Of a DNA stretch of 64,000 nucleotides, positions 5,256-25,776 are shown piece after piece; positions within the stretch are counted from its first letter, which is position 1, and each line of letters opens with the position of its first letter. Under the pieces are notes generated by a model that did no database searches, had not been told where the DNA came from, and saw nothing but the letters and a program-made list of their open reading frames with translations. Source of the stretch: an uncultured SAR86 cluster bacterium (lineage in GTDB: Bacteria > Pseudomonadota > Gammaproteobacteria > Magnimaribacterales > AG-339-G14); contig CACILL010000001.1 in NCBI GenBank assembly GCA_902587545.1, forward strand, positions 460,022 through 524,021, written 5' to 3'. A program made the translations under genes and the position numbers.

Positions 5256-6176
5256 TTATTCTTTTTTAAAGGGCTTGATGATTTGCTCAAGCTGGTCAAG
5301 ATCTTTATAAGAGAAAGAAATTTTTCCGCTACCATTCTTTTTGTGAGAAATTATTACTTGCGAATTAACCGCGTCACTGAGAGAGTTCTCTAGCGCCACA
5401 ATATTCGGATCTTTCGAAGAGCTACGTGCTCTACCGGTTTTTTTGTTTAAGTATGAGCTTGCTAATTTTTCGGCTTGCCTAACAGAAAGACTCGAAGAAA
5501 TTATCTTTTTTCCTATTTGCTCTTGATAAGCTGGGGGGAGCGGCAATAAGGCTCTTGCATGTCCCATGGTTAACTGGCCATCAAAGAGCATCTTTTGAAT
5601 TGGTTTTGAAAGCTGTAAAAGCCTCAAAGAGTTTGCAATAGCCGATCTTGATTTTCCTAATGCCTCTCCCATGGATTGTTGGGTAAGTCCAAATTCCTTT
5701 TGTAGCCTCAAAATTCCTTCTGCCTCTTCAAGCGGGTTCAAATCCTCTCTTTGCAAGTTCTCTATGAGGCCTACAGTCAAAGCAGATTCTTCAGAGTCTT
5801 CTCTTATCAAAACAGGAACAGAATTCAAACCGGCTAGTTTTGATGCTCTAAGCCTTCTTTCTCCAGCAACTAGCTCATAACCCTTAGCAAGCTTTCTGAC
5901 AATTAGGGGTTGAATTACGCCTTGGGCTTTAATTGAGTCGGAGAGCTCTTTGATGCTTTCTGGGGGGATGTTTTTTCTTGCTTGGAACCTGCTTGGTTTA
6001 ATGCTACTAATTTCAGCTTGAGTAATGCCAAGGCTAGGCTTATTGATTGCCTCTGCTTTTTTGGCTGGCAAGGGTTCTTCAGAACCTATAAAAGCGCCCA
6101 TGCCTCTGTTTTTTTTCTTTTCTTGCTCGGGCGACAAAAAAGCTGAAAGCCCTCTTTTCTTTTTTTCAGGCGACAT
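5256..6176 (-). CDS. parB: Chromosome partitioning protein ParB
   Basis: CTP-dependent DNA clamp that loads at parS sites and spreads to organise the origin region for segregation by ParA. The 306 residues show the ParB N-terminal domain with GERRLRASKLAGL (the CTP/arginine box) and a helix-turn-helix region (TQQSMGEALGKSRSAIANSL), then a dimerisation tail. I place the start at ATG 6176 (MSPEKKKRG); a start 12 bases upstream is possible but less like the family. The start overlaps parA by 11 bases. A candidate parS lies inside recF at 16241. Confidence 0.97.
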   Translation of the reverse strand: MSPEKKKRGLSAFLSPEQEKKKNRGMGAFIGSEEPLPAKKAEAINKPSLGITQAEISSIKPSRFQARKNIPPESIKELSDSIKAQGVIQPLIVRKLAKGYELVAGERRLRASKLAGLNSVPVLIREDSEESALTVGLIENLQREDLNPLEEAEGILRLQKEFGLTQQSMGEALGKSRSAIANSLRLLQLSKPIQKMLFDGQLTMGHARALLPLPPAYQEQIGKKIISSSLSVRQAEKLASSYLNKKTGRARSSSKDPNIVALENSLSDAVNSQVIISHKKNGSGKISFSYKDLDQLEQIIKPFKKE

Positions 6177-6942
6177 GTTTATCCTCAAACTTCATTATTA
6201 TCTCACCAGCAAGCGCAAAATATGCCAATGTTCCTTTGGCGTCTGGGTCAATGTACATAATTGGCTTTCCCTCCGAAGGGGCCTCGGCAAGCAGGTCGCA
6301 TCTAGGGATTATGGTACTAAATACCTGCTGAGAAAGAGACTTTTCGAGCTTTTCAGATATTTCTCTAGCCCTCTCTTTTTCTTGATCAAACATAGTTCTT
6401 AAAATTCCATCAATCTTTAGGTTGCTTCCCGTAGCTTCATTTATCTCATTTATTGTCCTCTGCATTGCAGCCAAACCTTCAATTGAAAAGTGCTCACATT
6501 GCAACGGTATGATTATTTTGTCCGCTGCTCTTAAAGCACTAACAGACAGCATGCCTAATGAAGGTGGGCTGTCTATCAAGCAATAATCATATTTGTGTGC
6601 CAATAGGTTTAGCTTTCCTTTCAAAATTGAAGTTGGATCGGGAACCTTTGCCATTTCTAACTCTGCGGATATCAGATCTGGGCTGCCTGGAATTACGTCA
6701 AAATTAAAATCAGGCTTTCTTTGAATTAAGCTCTCTAACGAAGCATCGTCAAGCAGTACGTCTGTGATGGTGGTTTCTTCGTATGTCTTCTTTCCGCCGA
6801 GCCCAGTGGTTAGGTTGGCCTGTGAGTCAATATCCAATAAAAGAATTTTTCTTCCCGCGGCCGCCAAGCTTGCGGCCAGATTTAAAGTTGTAGTGGTTTT
6901 TCCTACGCCCCCCTTTTGGTTTGCTACAACAAGAATTTTCAC
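6166..6942 (-). CDS. parA: Chromosome partitioning ATPase ParA
   Basis: Walker-type ATPase (Soj/ParA) that binds nucleoid DNA and moves ParB-parS complexes. The deviant Walker A motif KGGVGKTTTTLNLA is at residues 11-24, DIDSQANLTTGLG follows near 38, and the Walker B-like DSPPSLG is near 120. The 258-residue length without an N-terminal HTH marks the chromosomal rather than plasmid type. It sits in the conserved order mnmG-rsmG-parA-parB, overlapping parB and starting 18 bases after rsmG. Confidence 0.98.
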   Translation of the reverse strand: MKILVVANQKGGVGKTTTTLNLAASLAAAGRKILLLDIDSQANLTTGLGGKKTYEETTITDVLLDDASLESLIQRKPDFNFDVIPGSPDLISAELEMAKVPDPTSILKGKLNLLAHKYDYCLIDSPPSLGMLSVSALRAADKIIIPLQCEHFSIEGLAAMQRTINEINEATGSNLKIDGILRTMFDQEKERAREISEKLEKSLSQQVFSTIIPRCDLLAEAPSEGKPIMYIDPDAKGTLAYFALAGEIIMKFEDKHVA

Positions 6943-6960
6943 AAGCTTACTATAGCAGTT

Positions 6961-7557
6961 TTAGGACATTTGAATTTCCAAGAAACCTCTTTTTTTTCCA
7001 AGAATTTTAGATGCCTCTGACGCTTTGTAGGCGATATCATAACCTTGAGCAAAAAGGGGTTCCTTCTCAGAAACCATTAAAATTATTTTGTTTTTCTTTG
7101 TGATTTTGTTTTCCAAACTTTTTAACAAGGCATCTGGTTCTTTGAATGCCCTACAAACAATATTTGTTTCATTTATTTGTTCAATTTCCTCCACCCTTGA
7201 ATTCTTTATTGAGACTGAATTCAACCCGAGTTCGTTTTTTATGTGTATTAAAAAGGAAGTTTTTTTTCTGTTTGAATCCACAAGGGTTAGCTCTCTTTTA
7301 GGATCTATAATCCCTAGGCAAATTCCTGGAAAACCTGATCCCGTTCCTAGATCAATTACCGATCCAGGAATAAGATGTTTTTGCAAAACGGCACAGTCCA
7401 GAAAATGCTCTGCTAAATCATTTTTTCTCAAATTTCTGGATACTAAGTTTCGCGTTTTGTTCCATTTCAAAATTTGATTTAAATACTTATCAGCCTGGCT
7501 GACTTGAATATCAGTTAGGTTCAGGCTTGAAGCCGCAATCAGTTCTTTAAGATCCAA
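6961..7557 (-). CDS. rsmG: 16S rRNA (guanine-527-N7)-methyltransferase RsmG
   Basis: SAM-dependent methyltransferase acting on G527 of 16S rRNA; also known as GidB. The 198-residue protein carries the SAM-binding motif [16 protein letters not shown] at about residues 70-85. The N-terminal [12 protein letters not shown] is typical of the family. The start overlaps the end of mnmG by 11 bases, the usual gidA-gidB pairing. Confidence 0.97.
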
Positions 7558-9400
7558 TTTTTTCTTTGAGCAGGCTTTGTTCTTTTTTGATGTGAACTAA
7601 TAAAAGAGATATGGCAGCAGGCGTAATCCCCGGGATTCTCTGAGCGTGAGCTATGGTTTTAGGCAAAACCTTTTCCAGCTTTTGCTTTACCTCATTAGAC
7701 AGTCCTGTTATTTCAGAAAAAATAATTTCTCTTGGAATTTTTGCGTTTTCGTATTTCTTTATTTTTTTTATTTCTTTGTTTTGTCTTTCAATATAACCAG
7801 CATATTTTTTTGTTGTCTCTATATCTAAAAGCACGCCTTTTTCTGGAAGCGGTCTTTTTATTAAGTTGTAAATATCCACCAGCTTTGCTTCTGGCCTTTT
7901 CAAAACGGAAAGAACAGGTTGTTTTGATTTGTTTTTTCCTCCAAATGAAGAAGGATCAATTTTTATTTTTTCAAGCGCTTTTGTTTCGGCGTCTATTTTC
8001 GCCATTTTCTTTTGAAAAGTTTCCCACCTATCGTTGCTTATAATTCCCAAGGAATGTGCATAAGGGGTCATTCTTTGGTCTGCGTTATCTTCTCTGAGAA
8101 GCAACCTGTGCTCTGCTCTGCTTGTAAACATCCTGTAAGGCTCTTTTGTGCCCAAAGTTATTAAATCGTCTATCAAAACTCCTATGTAACTATTTCCTCT
8201 TGACTCTATCCAGGGATCTTTGTCGTCTAAACTCAGCGCAGCGTTTATTCCTGCCACCAACCCTTGCGCTGCTGCCTCTTCATAACCTGTGGTGCCGTTT
8301 ATTTGCCCAGCAAAGTAAAGGTTTTCTATTCTCTTTGTCTCCAAAGTTTGAGAAAGGTTTCTCGGATCGAAAAAATCATATTCAACCGCGTATCCAAATT
8401 GACTGATCTTAGCCTTTTCAAATCCTAAGATACTTTTAACCATTTTTTCTTGAATATCTCTCGGCATGCTTGTTGATATGCCATTTGGATAAACTTCCTC
8501 AGATGTAAGTCCTTCGGGCTCTATAAATATTTGATGAGATTCTTTGTCAGCAAATCTATGAATCTTGTCTTCTATTGAAGGGCAATACCGTGGTCCAACC
8601 CCGTCAATTCTTCCTGAAAACATCGGAGACCTGTCGAGTCCAGATCTTATAAAATCATGAGTTTTTTTGTTCGTTCTTGTGATAAAACAATTCATTTGTT
8701 TGGGGTGTATATCAGGCGAGCCAATGAAAGACATACATGGTCTTGGCGAATCTCCAGGTTGAACTTCTAATACTGAAAAGTCTATTGACGATGTGAGTAT
8801 CCTAGGAGGGGTTCCTGTTTTTAATCTTGCATCCCCTAAGTCTAAAGACCTCAAACAGTTTGCAAGTATCTTTGATGATTTTGACCTTTTTCTTCCTCCT
8901 TCTTCTTCCTCTTCTCCAGTAAACAACTTTCCATTTAAAAAAGTTCCTGCGGTTAAAATAATTTTTTTTGCGCTTATTATTTCTCCGTTTTTTAGCTTTA
9001 CCCCAGTGGCCTTACCATTATTTACTTCTATATCAACCACCTCATCAGATACAGAAGTTAGTAAGTCCTTACTATCAATTAAATACCTGACTGCCTTACT
9101 ATACAAAATCCTATCTGACTGAGATCTGGTGGCCCTAACAGCTGGTCCTTTAGAGGCATTCAAGACCTTGAAGTGAATACCTGCTTTGTCAGCACAAACT
9201 CCCATCAGCCCACCCATAGCATCTATTTCTCGAACAAGATGGCTTTTGCCTAAGCCCCCAATGGCAGGATTACAAGACATTTGTCCTATTGTTGAAACAT
9301 CGTGAGTAACAAGCAAAACTTTCTTTTTAAATCTAGAGGCGGCATAGGCAGCTTCACATCCGGCATGCCCTCCTCCGATTACAATGATATCCACACTCAT
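7547..9400 (-). CDS. mnmG: tRNA uridine-5-carboxymethylaminomethyl modification enzyme MnmG
   Basis: FAD-dependent partner of MnmE that installs the (carboxymethyl)aminomethyl group on U34 of certain tRNAs; also called GidA. The 617 residues have the N-terminal FAD dinucleotide motif [11 protein letters not shown], the conserved [19 protein letters not shown], and the [15 protein letters not shown] motif near residue 430. It lies downstream of the AT-rich mnmG-mnmE gap; in Escherichia coli the origin lies directly upstream of this gene. One copy of the 14-bp palindrome (9060-9073) lies inside it. Confidence 0.98.
9060..9073. repeat. 14-bp palindrome AGTAAG-TC-CTTACT, copy 1
   Basis: Reads AGTAAG, two bases, CTTACT, inside mnmG. 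It is one of four sites in the window matching AGTAAG-NN-CTTACT; the others begin at 12442, 21926 and 23080. Possibly the recognition site of an origin-proximal DNA-binding protein such as SlmA, by analogy to its site GTGAGTACTCAC. Confidence 0.6.
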
Positions 9401-9636
9401 AAATAAATATTATATAAATTATTTATATAAATTAGTTTATATTGTTATTGTTATAGGGCGGCGCATATTCTGTTGATAACCTACCTATGCTAGGAGTTGA
9501 AAGCATTGGAGCCAATGATATCTTCTTAAATAGTCTGTATATATTTTGAGAACAAAACTGTATTACTTGTGAGTAAAGACAAACTTTAAAATTAGCTTCA
9601 AAACTTTTAACAATTTATACACTCTTATCAACAGCA
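9401..9636. other. mnmG-mnmE intergenic region, candidate replication origin
   Basis: A 236-base gap, one of the two longest in the window. Next to mnmG it begins with about 55 bases that are almost pure A and T (9401-9455), suitable as a duplex-unwinding element. Further in are DnaA-box-like 9-mers: TGTTGATAA at 9471-9479, TTATACACT at 9615-9623 and TTATCAACA at 9625-9633, each one mismatch from TTAT(A/C)CACA. The placement upstream of mnmG matches Escherichia coli oriC. The boxes are degenerate, so the rpmH-dnaA gap is a rival candidate. The region must also hold the mnmG promoter. Confidence 0.45.
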
Positions 9637-10938
9637 TTATTTACCAATGCAAAATTTATTAAATATCTTTCCTAGCATATCGTCAGAAGAGATAGGATCA
9701 TATATCTCTCCCAAAAGTTCATCGCAGTTTCTTAAATTTTCAGCCACCAGTTCTAAATTAGAACTAACCAAGCCAGGGGAAATTAAAGCTATATTCTTGT
9801 ATGCCTTTTTTATTAAATTTAAATGTCTAATATTTACTGACAAGAGCTCTTCTTGGTTAAGTTTCAAAAAATTATGAGCAAGGGCTTTTTTAAGTGACTT
9901 AAGGTTTTTTTTCGTTTTTGCTGAAATTGCAAACCCCCCAACAGGAGCCCTTTTATTAGCAAGATCAATCTTGTTCAAAACAAAAATATTTTTTTTATTC
10001 TTTGCAATTGGCAATTTATCAAAATCATTTTCCTTATCAGCTAAGTAAATAACAATGTCAGCGCTTTTAAGTGCTTTTTTGGATAATTCGATGCCTTCTT
10101 TTTCGATTTTGTCTAAAGTTTTTCTAATTCCAGCAGTATCGCTGAAAACAAACCTGATTCCATCAATTAAGCAAGAAGAAGTAACCACATCTCTGGTAGT
10201 TCCTTGTTTTTCATTAACAATAGATACTTTTTTGCCGATTATAGCGTTAATTAGGGTAGATTTTCCTGAATTTGGCGGTCCAATAACAGCAACTTTTACA
10301 TCGTTAGAAATTGAACTATATGCTTTCATATCCTCATTAAATGAAGCGAAAAATAGTTTAAATTCATTAATTTTGTTTATAACCTCTTCGATATAAACAT
10401 TTACATCTTCATCCGTAAAGTCTATTAAAGTTTCAACTAGAACCCGTGTCTCTCTCAATTTATCTTGAATAGCTGATATTTTTACTTTTAGCCCGCCTTC
10501 AAGGCTGTTCTGTGCAGCTTTCAAAGAAGCTTTTGAATTGGCATTTATAATTTCTATTACAGCCTCAGACTGATCTAAAGAAAGCTTATTATTTAAAAAA
10601 GCTCTTAAAGTAAATTCGCCTGGCTTAGCTATTTTTGCTCCTGAATCCAAGCATTTCTTTATTACTTCTTCCACAATATAAGGATTCCCATGGGTTGAAA
10701 TTTCTACAATATCTTCCCCTGTGTAAGAATTTGGAGCCTTAAAGATAGTAAGTACACACTTCTCAATTAAATCAGCATTTAAAGGAAACTTAACCACAGA
10801 TATCTGTTTTTTAAGCTTATTTCTTGTTATTTTTTGAATGATAGAAAAAGCCTTATCGCCCGAAAGCCTTATTACAGAAATAGCACCTCTTCCAGGCGGA
10901 GATGAACAAGCTACTATAGTATCTTTTTCACTAAGCAC
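9637..10938 (-). CDS. mnmE: tRNA modification GTPase MnmE
   Basis: K+-activated GTPase that works with MnmG on U34 of tRNA. The 433 residues include the N-terminal folate-binding domain (DTIVACSSPPGRGAISVIRL), a helical domain, an inserted G domain with GPPNSGKSTLINA near 220, DTAG and NKID, and the invariant C-terminal CIGK. The start is GTG at 10938, chosen because it gives the family N-terminus; it lies 8 bases inside the yidC 3' end. It is about 20 residues shorter than the Escherichia coli protein. Confidence 0.97.
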   Translation of the reverse strand: MLSEKDTIVACSSPPGRGAISVIRLSGDKAFSIIQKITRNKLKKQISVVKFPLNADLIEKCVLTIFKAPNSYTGEDIVEISTHGNPYIVEEVIKKCLDSGAKIAKPGEFTLRAFLNNKLSLDQSEAVIEIINANSKASLKAAQNSLEGGLKVKISAIQDKLRETRVLVETLIDFTDEDVNVYIEEVINKINEFKLFFASFNEDMKAYSSISNDVKVAVIGPPNSGKSTLINAIIGKKVSIVNEKQGTTRDVVTSSCLIDGIRFVFSDTAGIRKTLDKIEKEGIELSKKALKSADIVIYLADKENDFDKLPIAKNKKNIFVLNKIDLANKRAPVGGFAISAKTKKNLKSLKKALAHNFLKLNQEELLSVNIRHLNLIKKAYKNIALISPGLVSSNLELVAENLRNCDELLGEIYDPISSDDMLGKIFNKFCIGK

Positions 10939-12571
10939 TTCTAGGAGAATGCATGAGCATTTGTATTGCAGACACCAAAGAGTTAATGAGCCAATACAGA
11001 ACTAAGCCCGCAGGGAAGAAAGCAAACATAACACCAAATATTAACGGCATAAACTTAAATATCTTTGCTTGCATTGGGTCTATCCCAGCAGGCTGTGGTT
11101 GAAGCATTTGCATAGCCCACATGGCCCCAATATTGAGAATAGGCAATATAAATAGAGGGTCCCTTGATGATAAATCTGTGATCCATATCATAAAAGGAGC
11201 ATATCTTAGCTCAACGGTTTCAATTAAAACCCAATAAAAAGCAAGAAAAAAAGGCATTTGAAGCAACATCGGCAGACACCCAAGGGCCGGATTAACTTTC
11301 TCATCTTTATAAAGCTTCATCATTGCTTGTGACATGGCCTGACGGTCTCCAGAATGTCTTTCCTGTAGATCTTTCAGTTGAGGCTGAATTTGCCTCATTT
11401 TGCCCATAGATTTGTATGAAACGTAAGATAAAGGCCATAAAATCACTTTAATTAGCAAAGTAACTAAAACAATAGCCCACCCCCAATTTCCGACCATATC
11501 ATAGAAGAATTGCATAGCCAGAAACATTGGCTGCCCTATCCAGTATAAAAACCCATAATCTACTGCCAAAGGAAGGTCTTGGTTTGCCTTGGATAACTCT
11601 GACTGAACTTTTGGACCAAAATACAGTGAATAACTAAAGGAAGTCTCTTCAAATGGCTGAATTTTTATTGGCCTTCCGACGACTCCAACCGAAAACTTCT
11701 CGTTTGTCTTGTTTTTTTTCCCAACGAAAACATTTATGTTTTCTTGGTCAGGAATAATAGCAGTTAAGAAATAGTGTTCTAAGAAAGCAGTCCAGCCTTT
11801 TATAGAGTTTTCTTTAAAATCGTTTTCCTCTAGCTCTCCCAGATTAACTTTTTGATAATTATCAGATTCAGTAGAAAAAACCGGACCAAGGTAAGCAAAG
11901 TTTGCTGGGTCTCCAAAAAATGCGCCTTCAGTTCCAGGAGGCTTAAGGGAGTTTCTTTCTATTTTTGAATAAGACGAAGAATTTATAACTTCTGAAGATA
12001 AGTTTCTTATGATGTGCTTAACTTCTACAAAATAATTTTCAGGTTGAAAAGATATAATCTTTGATTCTTTAACAGAAGAAGACTCTCTCACAAATGTGTA
12101 GCTATTTGTATCTGAACTCCTTTTTATGTCTTCAATCTTGAAAGAAGAAAAATCTTGATTAACATTATTTCCAAATACGAACCCAGATAATTGTGAATAT
12201 TCGTTTCTACCACAAGCATCAAACATTAGTTTGTTGTTATTTGAGCCAATTTCGTCTGGATAATTTTTTAATTCAGCTTTTTTTAAGGAACCGTCTGTTA
12301 GGTCAACAGAAATTTTCCAATTATTGGAATCTATTTCGTAGTCTCCGCCTGAGGCACAAGTTGCTGAAACGGAATTTGTAATTAATTCTGCAGGCTCATT
12401 ATTTATGCTTTCATCAATAAAGCCAAAGTCTTCTGTTTGCGAGTAAGTACTTACTTCGGTTTTAACCTCTTGTTTTACTGGTGTATTAGATGGTGGATCC
12501 CATCTAATAATTAGGAAATAGCTCATAATGAATACACAAGCTATTAGAAAATATCTTTGAAAATTTTCCAT
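10931..12571 (-). CDS. yidC: Membrane protein insertase YidC
   Basis: Inner-membrane insertase and chaperone, working alone or with SecYEG. The 546 residues have the Gram-negative layout: an N-terminal membrane helix (about 5-25), a large periplasmic domain, then the conserved five-helix core in the last 200 residues with LQMPFFLAFYWVL and LNIGAMWAMQMLQP. It starts in a one-base overlap with the yidD stop (TAATG) and ends inside mnmE. One copy of the 14-bp palindrome lies near its 5' end at 12442. Confidence 0.98.
   Translation of the reverse strand: MENFQRYFLIACVFIMSYFLIIRWDPPSNTPVKQEVKTEVSTYSQTEDFGFIDESINNEPAELITNSVSATCASGGDYEIDSNNWKISVDLTDGSLKKAELKNYPDEIGSNNNKLMFDACGRNEYSQLSGFVFGNNVNQDFSSFKIEDIKRSSDTNSYTFVRESSSVKESKIISFQPENYFVEVKHIIRNLSSEVINSSSYSKIERNSLKPPGTEGAFFGDPANFAYLGPVFSTESDNYQKVNLGELEENDFKENSIKGWTAFLEHYFLTAIIPDQENINVFVGKKNKTNEKFSVGVVGRPIKIQPFEETSFSYSLYFGPKVQSELSKANQDLPLAVDYGFLYWIGQPMFLAMQFFYDMVGNWGWAIVLVTLLIKVILWPLSYVSYKSMGKMRQIQPQLKDLQERHSGDRQAMSQAMMKLYKDEKVNPALGCLPMLLQMPFFLAFYWVLIETVELRYAPFMIWITDLSSRDPLFILPILNIGAMWAMQMLQPQPAGIDPMQAKIFKFMPLIFGVMFAFFPAGLVLYWLINSLVSAIQMLMHSPRSA
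12442..12455. repeat. 14-bp palindrome AGTAAGTACTTACT, copy 2
   Basis: A perfect palindrome, AGTAAGTACTTACT, inside the yidC coding region. It is identical to copy 3 at 21926 and shares the 12 fixed bases with copies 1 and 4. Confidence 0.65.
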
Positions 12572-12792
12572 TATTCTTCTTTTCCAGGAACCGGATCATA
12601 TCCTTTGGACCCCAAAGGATGACACTTAGAAATTCTTTTAATTCCTAGACTTACCCCCTTTAAAACACCATGAAGGTTTATAGCCTCTATCATGTATTGA
12701 CTGCATGTCGGCTGAAATCTGCAATTTGAACCTAACAAGGGGCTTAATGTAATTTGATAAAATTTAATTAAATATATAATTATTTTTTTCAT
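12571..12792 (-). CDS. yidD: Membrane protein insertion efficiency factor YidD
   Basis: Small membrane-associated protein that helps YidC-dependent insertion. The 73 residues contain the diagnostic [14 protein letters not shown], the region around [14 protein letters not shown], and an amphipathic N-terminus. It overlaps the rnpA 3' end by 29 bases and the yidC start by one base, the standard rnpA-yidD-yidC arrangement. Confidence 0.96.
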
Positions 12793-13120
12793 TCATTTTC
12801 TTAGTTAAATTCAAAAACAGAGTCTTTATTTCTCTTCTTAATTTTTCTTTTTTAAAATCTAAAATTCTTTTTTTTGAAACCACAATCAATGATACTTTAG
12901 ATTCCGCAAAGATATCGATAGATAAATTCCTAATAATTCTCTTTAAATAATTTCTGTGAACCGCAAGTTTAATATTTTTTTTAGGAAGAATCATGCCCAG
13001 CTTAAAATTGTCGTTTGTAATTAGTATCAAAGCTCTAAAATTTTCTGAACTTATATTTTCGCTGGAATTATTGAAGACTTCATCGAAGTCATCCTTTCCC
13101 ACTAAAGGCTTATAAGACAA
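12764..13120 (-). CDS. rnpA: Ribonuclease P protein component
   Basis: Protein subunit of RNase P, which matures tRNA 5' ends with the M1 RNA. The 118 residues carry a diverged form of the RNR signature, [11 protein letters not shown] near residue 55, and a basic C-terminus. The start is TTG at 13120, one base after the rpmH stop; no better ATG exists, and the tight spacing suggests coupling to rpmH. The sequence is more diverged than its neighbours, which is common for this family. Confidence 0.93.
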
Positions 13121-13121
13121 C

Positions 13122-13256
13122 TTAAACTGTGAGAGACTTTCTTCCCTTACTTCTTCTGCTTTTTAAAACCTGTTTTCCTGAAACGCTAGAATTTCTCGCC
13201 CTGAAACCATGAGTTCTTTTTCTTTTTATTTTGCTGGGTTGATACGTTCTTTTCAT
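13122..13256 (-). CDS. rpmH: 50S ribosomal protein L34
   Basis: A 44-residue, very basic ribosomal protein: [18 protein letters not shown] followed by the expected [10 protein letters not shown] end. The true start is ATG at 13256; an open reading frame extends upstream from a GTG at 13364, but those residues are not part of L34. It is the first gene of the rpmH-rnpA-yidD-yidC-mnmE operon and is transcribed divergently from dnaA. Confidence 0.99.
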
Positions 13257-13283
13257 TTTTTTAAGATTTGATTGAGCAAAAGA

Positions 13284-13311
13284 ATAATATAGATTGAAAA
13301 GATAAAAGCAA
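13284..13311 (-). promoter_or_regulatory. Possible promoter of rpmH operon
   Basis: On the minus strand, TTGCTT, 16 bases, then TATTAT, about 30 bases before the rpmH ATG. This is a fair match to a sigma70 promoter in a very AT-rich stretch, so chance matches are likely. Confidence 0.35.
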
Positions 13312-13356
13312 GAAAAAATAAATAGAAATAAATAAAAAAAACTAAGAACTAACAGG

Positions 13357-13405
13357 TTATCCACAGAAAATTAATAGCATATCCTGTGGATAACTTTGTG
13401 TATAA
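13357..13405. promoter_or_regulatory. DnaA-box cluster between rpmH and dnaA
   Basis: Three boxes in 49 bases: TTATCCACA at 13357-13365 (perfect), TGTGGATAA at 13385-13393 (perfect, opposite strand) and TGTGTATAA at 13397-13405 (TTATACACA on the other strand). They lie 24-72 bases before the dnaA ATG. This fits autoregulation of dnaA or a Pseudomonas-type oriC, which also lies in the rpmH-dnaA gap. The non-coding space is only about 170 bases, small for a complete origin. Confidence 0.8.
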
Positions 13406-13428
13406 GGTATATTATCTTTTTATCCGTC

Positions 13429-14760
13429 ATGATGATCAAATCTTGGAAAAAATGTAAAAAAGCTCTTCAAAAGGAAATGTCCCAGGAAGAATTTAACGCC
13501 TGGATTAATCCTTTAGAGTTCTCTGTAAATAAGTCTCCTTCAGGAAGCAAAGATCTTTTTATACTCGCTCCCAACGTTTTCATTAAAGAACATGTGAGAG
13601 AAAATTACGACGAAATCATTAGAAAACACTTATTAAAAGAAGATTTATCTGATATGCCGCTTGTATATGAGCTCATATCTGTGCGTAAGCCATTGATTAA
13701 TAAGGAAAATAATAAAAATTTAAGTCTTTTTCTTAACAAAGAGAACACTCTTAATGATGATTACACTTTCGAAACATTTGTAGAGGGCAAATCTAATAAC
13801 ATAGCACTTGCAGCTGCTAAACAGGTTTCTGAGTCTAAAAATGCAGCTTATAACCCACTGTTCATATATGGGGGGGTTGGACTGGGGAAGACCCATCTAA
13901 TGCATGCTGTCGGAAATAAGCTAAAAGAGCAGGACAAATCCAAAAACATTGTCTATGTACACTCAGAAAGGTTCGTAAGCGACATGGTGAAGTGTTTGCA
14001 GCTAGGATCAATAAACGATTTTAAAAATTTTTATAGATCTGTTGACGCTCTTCTAATCGACGATATTCAATTTTTTGCTGGCAAAGAACAATCTCAGGAA
14101 GAGCTTTTTCACACTTTTAACACTTTATTAGAAGGCGGCCAACAAATGATTCTAACTTGTGACAAATATCCTAAAGAAATAGATGGTTTAGAAGAGAGGC
14201 TAAAATCCAGGCTTGGATGGGGCCTTCCAGTTAGCATAGAGCCGCCTGAATTAGAAACAAGAGTTGCAATTTTGTTAACTAAAGCCTCAGAAATGGAATT
14301 AAACCTGTCAGAAGACTCAGCTTTTTATATTGCAGAAAAAATTAGATCTAATGTTAGAGAGCTTGAAGGGGCATTAAGAAGAGTAGGTGCTAATGCGAAA
14401 TTTACGAATAGAGAAATTGATGTAAATTTGATTAAAGAGTCGCTAAAAGACTTACTTGCTATTCAACAAAGACAAATAAGCATAGAAAACATACAAAAAA
14501 CCGTCTCTGATTACTACAACATAAGGGTTTCTGATCTTTTATCTAGTAAAAGAACGCGCTCTCTAGCAAGGCCCAGACAAGTCTCAATGTGTTTATCAAA
14601 AGAATTAACTAATCACAGTTTGCCAGAAATAGGAGATTCTTTTGGCGGCAGGGATCATACAACTGTATTGCACGCATGTAGACGAATTACAGCCCTTAGA
14701 GAAGAAGATGCTGACATAGCAGAAGATTACACTAAATTAATAAGAACATTGACAGCATGA
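13429..14760 (+). CDS. dnaA: Chromosomal replication initiator protein DnaA
   Basis: AAA+ initiator that binds DnaA boxes and melts the origin. The 443 residues have domain I (MIKSWKKCKKALQKEM), a short linker, an AAA+ core with the P-loop GGVGLGKTHLMHAVG near residue 145 and LLIDDIQF as Walker B, and domain IV with the DNA-binding signature GGRDHTTVLHACR. I choose ATG 13429; the ATG three bases later is equally plausible, while a TTG 33 bases upstream lies in the DnaA boxes and adds non-family residues. It overlaps dnaN by ATGA. Confidence 0.98.
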   Translation: MMIKSWKKCKKALQKEMSQEEFNAWINPLEFSVNKSPSGSKDLFILAPNVFIKEHVRENYDEIIRKHLLKEDLSDMPLVYELISVRKPLINKENNKNLSLFLNKENTLNDDYTFETFVEGKSNNIALAAAKQVSESKNAAYNPLFIYGGVGLGKTHLMHAVGNKLKEQDKSKNIVYVHSERFVSDMVKCLQLGSINDFKNFYRSVDALLIDDIQFFAGKEQSQEELFHTFNTLLEGGQQMILTCDKYPKEIDGLEERLKSRLGWGLPVSIEPPELETRVAILLTKASEMELNLSEDSAFYIAEKIRSNVRELEGALRRVGANAKFTNREIDVNLIKESLKDLLAIQQRQISIENIQKTVSDYYNIRVSDLLSSKRTRSLARPRQVSMCLSKELTNHSLPEIGDSFGGRDHTTVLHACRRITALREEDADIAEDYTKLIRTLTA

Positions 14761-24843: not shown

Positions 24844-25776
24844 CTATTTAAAGCTTTCATCGGAGTTAAAAAAATCTTTTGATCCATTGTAGAAACTTTT
24901 GTATTCCATTCTTTTTTTATTCTGCCTGGCAAGCTCTTTAATTTCGACACACTGATCTATTCCAGAGACTAAAAATTCTTTTTTATCAGCCTTAATAACT
25001 TTTCCAGGATCCGAAGCGGGTAGGGCATTTATTTTTGCACGGTGAATGATAATTCTTTCATTTTTATATTCTGAAAATGCACAAGGATTAGGACAAAGAC
25101 CGTTAATTTTGCCAACTATTTCTTCCGCTGATTTTGTCCAATCTATTCTAGCTTCATCTTTGGTTACTTTAGGAGCATAAGAAGATTCATTTTCATTTTG
25201 TTCTGTAAGTGAAAATGTATTTTCCTCAATAGAATCAATTACTTGTATAATATTTCTAGACGAAATATCGCTCATAATTTCTTCTAAATCTTCGGTATTC
25301 TTTCCTTCCTCAATAGGAAATTTTACGCTGGTTACAATTGGACCCGTATCTAGACCAGCATCCATTTTCATGAATGTAATTCCTGTTTCTCGGTCGCAGT
25401 TAATTATGCTTCTTTGAATTGGAGCTGCACCTCTGTACTTAGGCAATAAAGAAGTATGAATGTTAAAGCTTCCATGTTTTGCCACATTCAAAAGTTCTTC
25501 ACTAATGATGTGTCCAAAAGCAAAGACAAGAAGAAGATCAATATCGAGTTTTTCCAAGGTAGGTCTGAACTTTTTATCTTTGATTTCATCATATGAAAAA
25601 ATTTTAATTTTTTTCTCTTCCGCAAAAACTCTAATTGGACTTTTAACAAATTTTAAACCTCTACCCGAACGTTTTTCTTCTGCACAAATTACTCCAACTA
25701 AATCGTGTTCAGATTCGTAGAGCGTTTCTAAAGTTTTAAGAGCAATTTTTGGCGTAGCAGCAAATAGGATTTTCAT
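24844..25776 (-). CDS. fmt: Methionyl-tRNA formyltransferase
   Basis: Transfers a formyl group from 10-formyl-tetrahydrofolate to initiator Met-tRNA. The 310 residues carry the folate-binding SLLPKYRGAAPIQ near residue 110 and the family start MKILFAATPKIALKTLE. The C-terminal tRNA-binding domain is present and of normal length. Its ATG overlaps the def stop by one base, the conserved def-fmt pair. Confidence 0.98.
   Translation of the reverse strand: MKILFAATPKIALKTLETLYESEHDLVGVICAEEKRSGRGLKFVKSPIRVFAEEKKIKIFSYDEIKDKKFRPTLEKLDIDLLLVFAFGHIISEELLNVAKHGSFNIHTSLLPKYRGAAPIQRSIINCDRETGITFMKMDAGLDTGPIVTSVKFPIEEGKNTEDLEEIMSDISSRNIIQVIDSIEENTFSLTEQNENESSYAPKVTKDEARIDWTKSAEEIVGKINGLCPNPCAFSEYKNERIIIHRAKINALPASDPGKVIKADKKEFLVSGIDQCVEIKELARQNKKRMEYKSFYNGSKDFFNSDESFK

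Follow-up and report, generated by a model that had tools for sequence, protein, structure and literature searches.

The replication origin of Pseudomonas lies between rpmH and dnaA. In P. aeruginosa the gene synteny at the origin and five DnaA boxes have been described (PMC4285127), and in E. coli, whose oriC (NC_000913.3, 3925744-3925975) lies beside mnmG, the TTGT and TTATT motifs are required for ssDUE binding (PMC5742627). Autoregulation of dnaA is known from E. coli and a number of other species, and in P. putida overproduced DnaA gave no repression of dnaA (both in PMC8203912). SAR86 bacteria are among the most abundant in the surface ocean. Their first isolate was described in 2024 (PMC11582366), in a paper that reports a closed genome of Magnimaribacter mokuoloeensis HIMB1674 and whose main text contains neither the word "replication" nor the word "skew". 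Among the open-access papers listed for SAR86 combined with origin, oriC or GC skew, no title or abstract opening was about a SAR86 origin.

The 64-kb stretch of SAR86 DNA analysed here (the window) carries the order parB-parA-rsmG-mnmG-mnmE-yidC-dnaA-dnaN-recF-gyrB, which is common to the loci we compared wherever the fetched stretch reaches, with rnpA undetected in several order loci. Window genes were named by NCBIfam, with yidD recognized by eye, and the DnaA of the window matches that of the closest twelve loci at 93-100%. The original prediction had pointed to two opposite perfect DnaA boxes and a near-match within some 170 bases before dnaA as a candidate origin, and the features of this region are as follows.

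13257-13428, gap between rpmH and dnaA, 172 bp, 23% GC
13122-13256, minus strand, a gene we take to be rpmH from its translation
13429-14760, plus strand, dnaA (TIGR00362, 566 bits), with its ATG at 13429
13357-13365, plus strand, DnaA box 1, TTATCCACA, the outer half of an inverted pair that is conserved
13385-13393, minus strand, DnaA box 2, TTATCCACA, overlapping the predicted dnaA -35 hexamer at 13387-13392
13397-13405, minus strand, DnaA box 3, TTATACACA, 12 bp from box 2
13387-13415, plus strand, predicted dnaA promoter TGGATA-17-TATTAT, a consensus match only

Boxes 1 and 2 form an inverted pair, 28 bp from start to start, a conserved spacing on which the original prediction was silent. 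Coordinates and simulation both bear out the arrangement that had been described, as first-order Markov simulation gives an expectation of 0.001-0.002 perfect boxes per 172 bp, and under neither of two models (the composition of the gap or that of the window) did any of 40,000 simulated gaps contain two perfect boxes. Nine perfect boxes are present in the whole 1,133,074-bp assembly. The total of TTWTNCACA boxes in the 64-kb window is at chance level (11 vs. 10.0 expected), and apart from the rpmH-dnaA cluster no neighbouring boxes of this class lie 172 bp or less apart there. The cluster is real, and it is conserved.

Conservation was examined in 81 loci (80 and the window), from 79 of which the rpmH-dnaA gap was obtained. 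Of these 79 SAR86 gaps, 77 contain one or more perfect boxes ahead of dnaA. Thirteen of the 14 genus loci, counting our own, have the perfect pair 28 bp apart together with the third box TTATACACA, and the remaining one (L013) has variant boxes at the same places. In the rest of the family two TTWTNCACA-class boxes stand 28 bp apart in 14/16 loci, and box 3 is at its place in genus loci only. Over all 79 gaps the perfect pair is found at 28 bp in 12 and at 29 bp in 7, leaving 60 without one. Outside SAR86, a perfect box lies 63-172 bp ahead of dnaA in 12 of the 20 class loci, and an inverted perfect pair with 10-40 bp between the boxes occurs in 11/140 class genomes, own included; among the matches listed, the 28-bp step is found in our genome only. 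One family member (L016) has an extra TTATCCACA about 160-50 bp before the dnaA match, in a stretch that occurs twice, so that the outer box region is duplicated.

The rpmH-dnaA stretch holds five promoter-like sites compared to 1.6 in shuffles. In the one predicted for dnaA by consensus match, box 2 overlaps the -35 hexamer and box 3 falls inside the spacer, placing DnaA boxes at the predicted promoter itself. The E. coli dnaA gene likewise has one perfect TTATCCACA upstream, in the orientation of box 2; unlike E. coli, the window's SAR86 family adds an inverted box 28 bp out and the window's genus a third box. Based on the promoter-like overlap of boxes 2 and 3, and on the perfect box upstream of dnaA in SAR86 and class loci, we read the cluster as a probable site of dnaA autoregulation, which is the best supported of the options that had been put forward for it. 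From the boxes, their conservation and the promoter overlap we infer binding by DnaA, which would occupy box 2 on the -35 region with boxes 1 and 3 joining, and the bound DnaA would then repress transcription of dnaA.

A second interval, between mnmG and mnmE, had been placed about 4 kb away, which is right, as its near end at 9636 is 3.6 kb from the cluster. Its features are listed below.

7547-9400, minus strand, mnmG (NCBIfam), left flank of the proposed oriC
9401-9636, mnmG-mnmE gap, 236 bp, proposed E. coli-type oriC
9396-9455, proposed DUE beside mnmG, the least stable 60-bp stretch of the 64-kb window
9442-9454, plus strand, T-rich repeat TTGTTATTGTTAT containing TTGT and TTATT motifs
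9471-9479, minus strand, R1-like box TTATCAACA
9625-9633, plus strand, end box TTATCAACA, in opposite orientation at an R4-like position
9637-13120, minus strand, mnmE, yidC, a yidD-like stretch (by eye) and rnpA, lying between the two gaps

The gap is 236 bp long in the window and in all ten genus loci measured, 231-267 bp in nine family loci and 193-253 bp in 15 order loci. At position 80 of the gap the genus has a box that reads TTATCAACA in the window and 9/10 loci, and the end box has this sequence in the window and eight of the ten. By our end criteria the gap could be obtained in 57 of the 81 loci, and these hold 45 copies of TTATCAACA in 28 gaps (0.2 in shuffles), 25 copies of TTWTNCACA in 21 gaps and four copies of perfect TTATCCACA in four gaps. 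It speaks against an origin here that the boxes of the proposed oriC are mostly TTATCAACA or TTATTAACA, outside the TTATNCACA class, and that the perfect boxes sit at dnaA. Within the first 90 bp of the 57 gaps, the T-rich strand has 230 copies of TT[AG]TT compared to 81 in single-base shuffles (maximum 107), and the other strand is enriched as well (90 vs. 38). Both TTGT and TTATT are found on the T-rich strand in 53 of the 57, against a shuffle mean of 20.5. A predicted DUE linked to mnmG and on the mnmG side, with TTGT and TTATT on its T-rich strand, is the arrangement of an E. coli-type origin.

The likeness to E. coli oriC extends to the location beside mnmG, the T-rich repeats followed by an R1-type box in the same orientation, and the opposite box at the far end. 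In E. coli TTATTAG is followed after 13 nt by TGTGGATAA, and the window has TTGTTATTGTTATAG, then 14 nt after its TTATAG, then TGTTGATAA at 9471-9479. Boxes are at the places expected for R1 and R4, but unlike those of E. coli their sequence is TTATCAACA, and the neighbour is mnmE instead of mioC. Despite the E. coli-like layout, SeqA gave no match in any of the 31 SAR86 genomes searched (own included, 59-97% complete). Among class loci, mnmG is beside mnmE in seven, of which five have a gap of 9-68 bp without boxes (up to one mismatch allowed), one a 561-bp gap without boxes and one a 525-bp gap with four. The four DnaA boxes in the gap of the last locus (L248) comprise two perfect ones and two with a single mismatch, and a perfect box before its dnaA makes it another possible two-site case.

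We place oriC at mnmG on account of this layout, the constant length in the measured genus loci and the change in strand asymmetry between the flanking genes, and the mnmG-mnmE gap is the most likely location judging from sequence. A proposed AT-rich unwinding element with TTGT/TTATT repeats adjoining mnmG is followed by the R1-like box, weaker box-like sites inward and the opposite end box, and replication would start within the gap. Taken together, it is probable that the boxes at 13357-13405 are a DnaA-binding control element of the dnaA promoter and not an origin, with replication most likely starting in the mnmG-mnmE gap. If this is true, contigs rotated to begin at dnaA, including several of those used here, misplace the origin by about 4 kb.

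GC skew had been suggested as a check, and plain cumulative skew turned out to be uninformative in the window. Its minimum at 25704 follows gene orientation, and we rejected it as an origin locator. Skew sampled in two single-contig relatives (G016 and G041) was also set aside, since the raw values follow gene orientation, the third-position values are near zero and neither gives fine localisation. Per-gene third-position counts change sign from mnmG to mnmE in five sets, namely the genus, the family and three further families of the order. The per-gene values that follow are corrected for amino-acid content and expressed as TA or GC excess per codon. Across SAR86 the background consisted of dnaA, dnaN, recF and gyrB of the same locus, whose own near-zero values carry no weight, and dnaA was checked separately against the other three.

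Enough background was available for both mnmG and mnmE in 68 SAR86 loci, and mnmE exceeds mnmG in all 68 for TA excess and in 66 for GC. These loci are related and are not independent events. TA excess is negative in mnmG (68/68), rsmG (57/57) and parA (28/30) and positive in mnmE (68/69) and yidC (66/70). When the genus, family and order sets are taken apart, the means are likewise negative for parB, parA, rsmG and mnmG and positive for mnmE and yidC. To the right, the minus-strand genes plsC, glyS and trkH have positive mean TA excess in the genus and order sets, and the family set has a positive glyS and a negative trkH. When scored against genome background, every minus-strand ORF on the right side is TA-positive in our own window, but signs vary in G016 and G041. 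Between yidC and rpmH the ORFs are at +0.070, and the first 150 dnaA codons are at +0.012. The average flip does not fall exactly in the gap but on its DUE side, about 100 codons into mnmG. The sign change of minus-strand genes is therefore located at mnmG-mnmE; the strength of the asymmetry falls at rpmH-dnaA, where a second sign change is not consistent.

Single genomes differ in how strongly they display this. The null for G041, whose genes were assigned by ORF order and size, was 114 ORFs from sampled genome stretches, including one running rightward from dnaA. Its parA, rsmG and mnmG have TA excesses of -0.13 to -0.21, mnmE +0.17 and yidC +0.18, each beyond all 114 null ORFs. GC excess agrees beyond the null for parA, rsmG, mnmG and mnmE but not for yidC (10/114 null ORFs as high), and an atpF-sized ORF is likewise beyond the null for TA. 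In G016 mnmG is the lowest of 110 for TA, and mnmE and yidC are at background. The effect is weak in our own genome, with values of -0.07, +0.04 and -0.01 for mnmG, mnmE and yidC against locus background, and against 46 null ORFs mnmG stands at -0.071 with 45 of them as high or higher.

An island of asymmetry can thus be outlined around the mnmG-mnmE gap, at 6166-12571 of the window and in the homologous SAR86 loci. It is strongest in family f3 and weak in the window's genus, and in G041 it is far stronger than the rest of the sampled genome, with a right edge between yidC and dnaA. Since genome-wide asymmetry is tiny in the sampled G041 (leading TA -0.006, lagging +0.015) and weak in G016, we regard the island as a local effect. 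Around E. coli oriC, with the same 27 genes serving as background, TA excess stays within 0.072 of zero in every gene and no comparable island is seen, so an island of this kind is not a proven origin marker. The seven class loci with mnmG beside mnmE have no flip either (TA of mnmE minus mnmG, -0.07 to +0.03); they belong to a class set of 20 loci, many of them GC-rich, picked for contig position and family spread from 135 genomes with a DnaA match.

By the usual rule the leading strand is G/T-rich. For forks leaving the mnmG gap, the leading strand would instead be rich in C and A, and the island poses a puzzle about events at the origin. It may come from longer single-strandedness of leading-strand templates near oriC. 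One version of this, which we consider quite unlikely, is that around the SAR86 origin kilobases of the leading-strand template remain single-stranded until synthesis of the leading strand begins, and that the conserved dnaA-proximal boxes help to end the open zone. This would account for the extent of about 6-7 kb and for a C/A-rich leading strand to either side of the mnmG gap. If an mnmG origin is true, the island could locate the origin on SAR86 contigs with no need of coverage data.

In a Pseudomonas-type origin replication would start between rpmH and dnaA, where DnaA would assemble on boxes 1-3 and the A-rich stretch 13265-13350 would be the DUE. The usual rule would make mnmE-yidC leading from an origin at dnaA, which counts in favour of this location and would explain mnmE-yidC, but not mnmG-parA. 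The perfect boxes here are conserved, the neighbourhood and the TTATCCACA boxes are those of Pseudomonas, and the gap is AT-rich and unstable, ranking sixth among the separate least stable places of the window. TT[AG]TT also counts in its favour, with a slight excess at most: 123 vs. 96.5 on one strand (shuffle maximum 117) and 188 vs. 169.7 on the other (maximum 199). There are only three R-class boxes compared to five or more in Pseudomonas going by the published counts in PMC4285127 and PMC8203912, and the 60 SAR86 gaps without a perfect pair also speak against an assembly site. There is no clear asymmetry switch at this gap, as signs on the right side are mixed in G016, in G041 and in the family set, and in the genus and order sets mnmE and yidC share their sign with minus-strand genes lying to the right of both gaps. 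The conserved mnmG-mnmE gap would also remain without explanation if the origin were at dnaA. This part of the original prediction therefore fared poorly, and we judge it unlikely.

The two sites could also cooperate as a bipartite origin, with DnaA at the rpmH-dnaA boxes and the mnmG gap, looping over the 3.6 kb between them and unwinding at mnmG only. As in B. subtilis and H. pylori there are two clusters of DnaA boxes, one of them with a proposed DUE; both sets are conserved in SAR86 within the same gene order, and asymmetry is strong over mnmE-yidC, weaker from yidC to rpmH and at background level in dnaA. However, the spacer here contains several genes instead of dnaA, whereas the bipartite origins described in PMC4285127 extend over about 2 kb and have a single gene, usually dnaA, as spacer. 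Two of the 12 class loci with a perfect dnaA-proximal box have an mnmG-mnmE gap of just 22-33 bp without boxes, and nothing positive argues for cooperation, which the sequence tests made here do not separate from coincidence. We regard a bipartite origin as very unlikely. The idea that the rpmH-dnaA cluster titrates DnaA or reactivates it in the manner of DARS is highly improbable in our view, even though boxes 2 and 3 match boxes II and III of E. coli DARS1 in orientation and in their 12-bp step, CCTGTGGATAACnnTGTGTATnAG is common to the cluster and DARS1, and box 1 is opposite to the other two, an arrangement that PMC5742627 gives for the DARS core. Box 1 is at 28 bp and not 14, so that the spacing of 13357-13405 is 28-12 and we rejected it as a DARS core (I-14-II-12-III, I opposite II/III). 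In addition, box 3 is confined to genus loci, and the full 14-12 geometry is present at another site in the genome.

That site lies outside the window (G000:C2:113406-113440, L031:5407-5441) and consists of the triplet TTATCCACA-14-TTATCCACA(-)-12-TTATCCAAA(-), whose steps equal those of E. coli DARS1. It is flanked by a gene of the uracil-DNA-glycosylase superfamily (PF03167) and an Oxidored_FMN gene. A second DnaA-like protein of the same genome (C3:46330-46980) was considered as Hda and, at 98.9 bits against a cut-off of 194.8, was not called so. Sequences similar to the DARS1-like site have already been reported in many proteobacteria (PMC10380432). Its box I-II pattern was found in 12/16 genus, 129/151 order and 117/275 class genomes, and a reversed control of the pattern had no match among the matches listed. 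Box III is present with up to two mismatches in 48 of 51 loci, and all 31 SAR86 loci among those 51, all of family f1, have a match to the PF03167 glycosylase.
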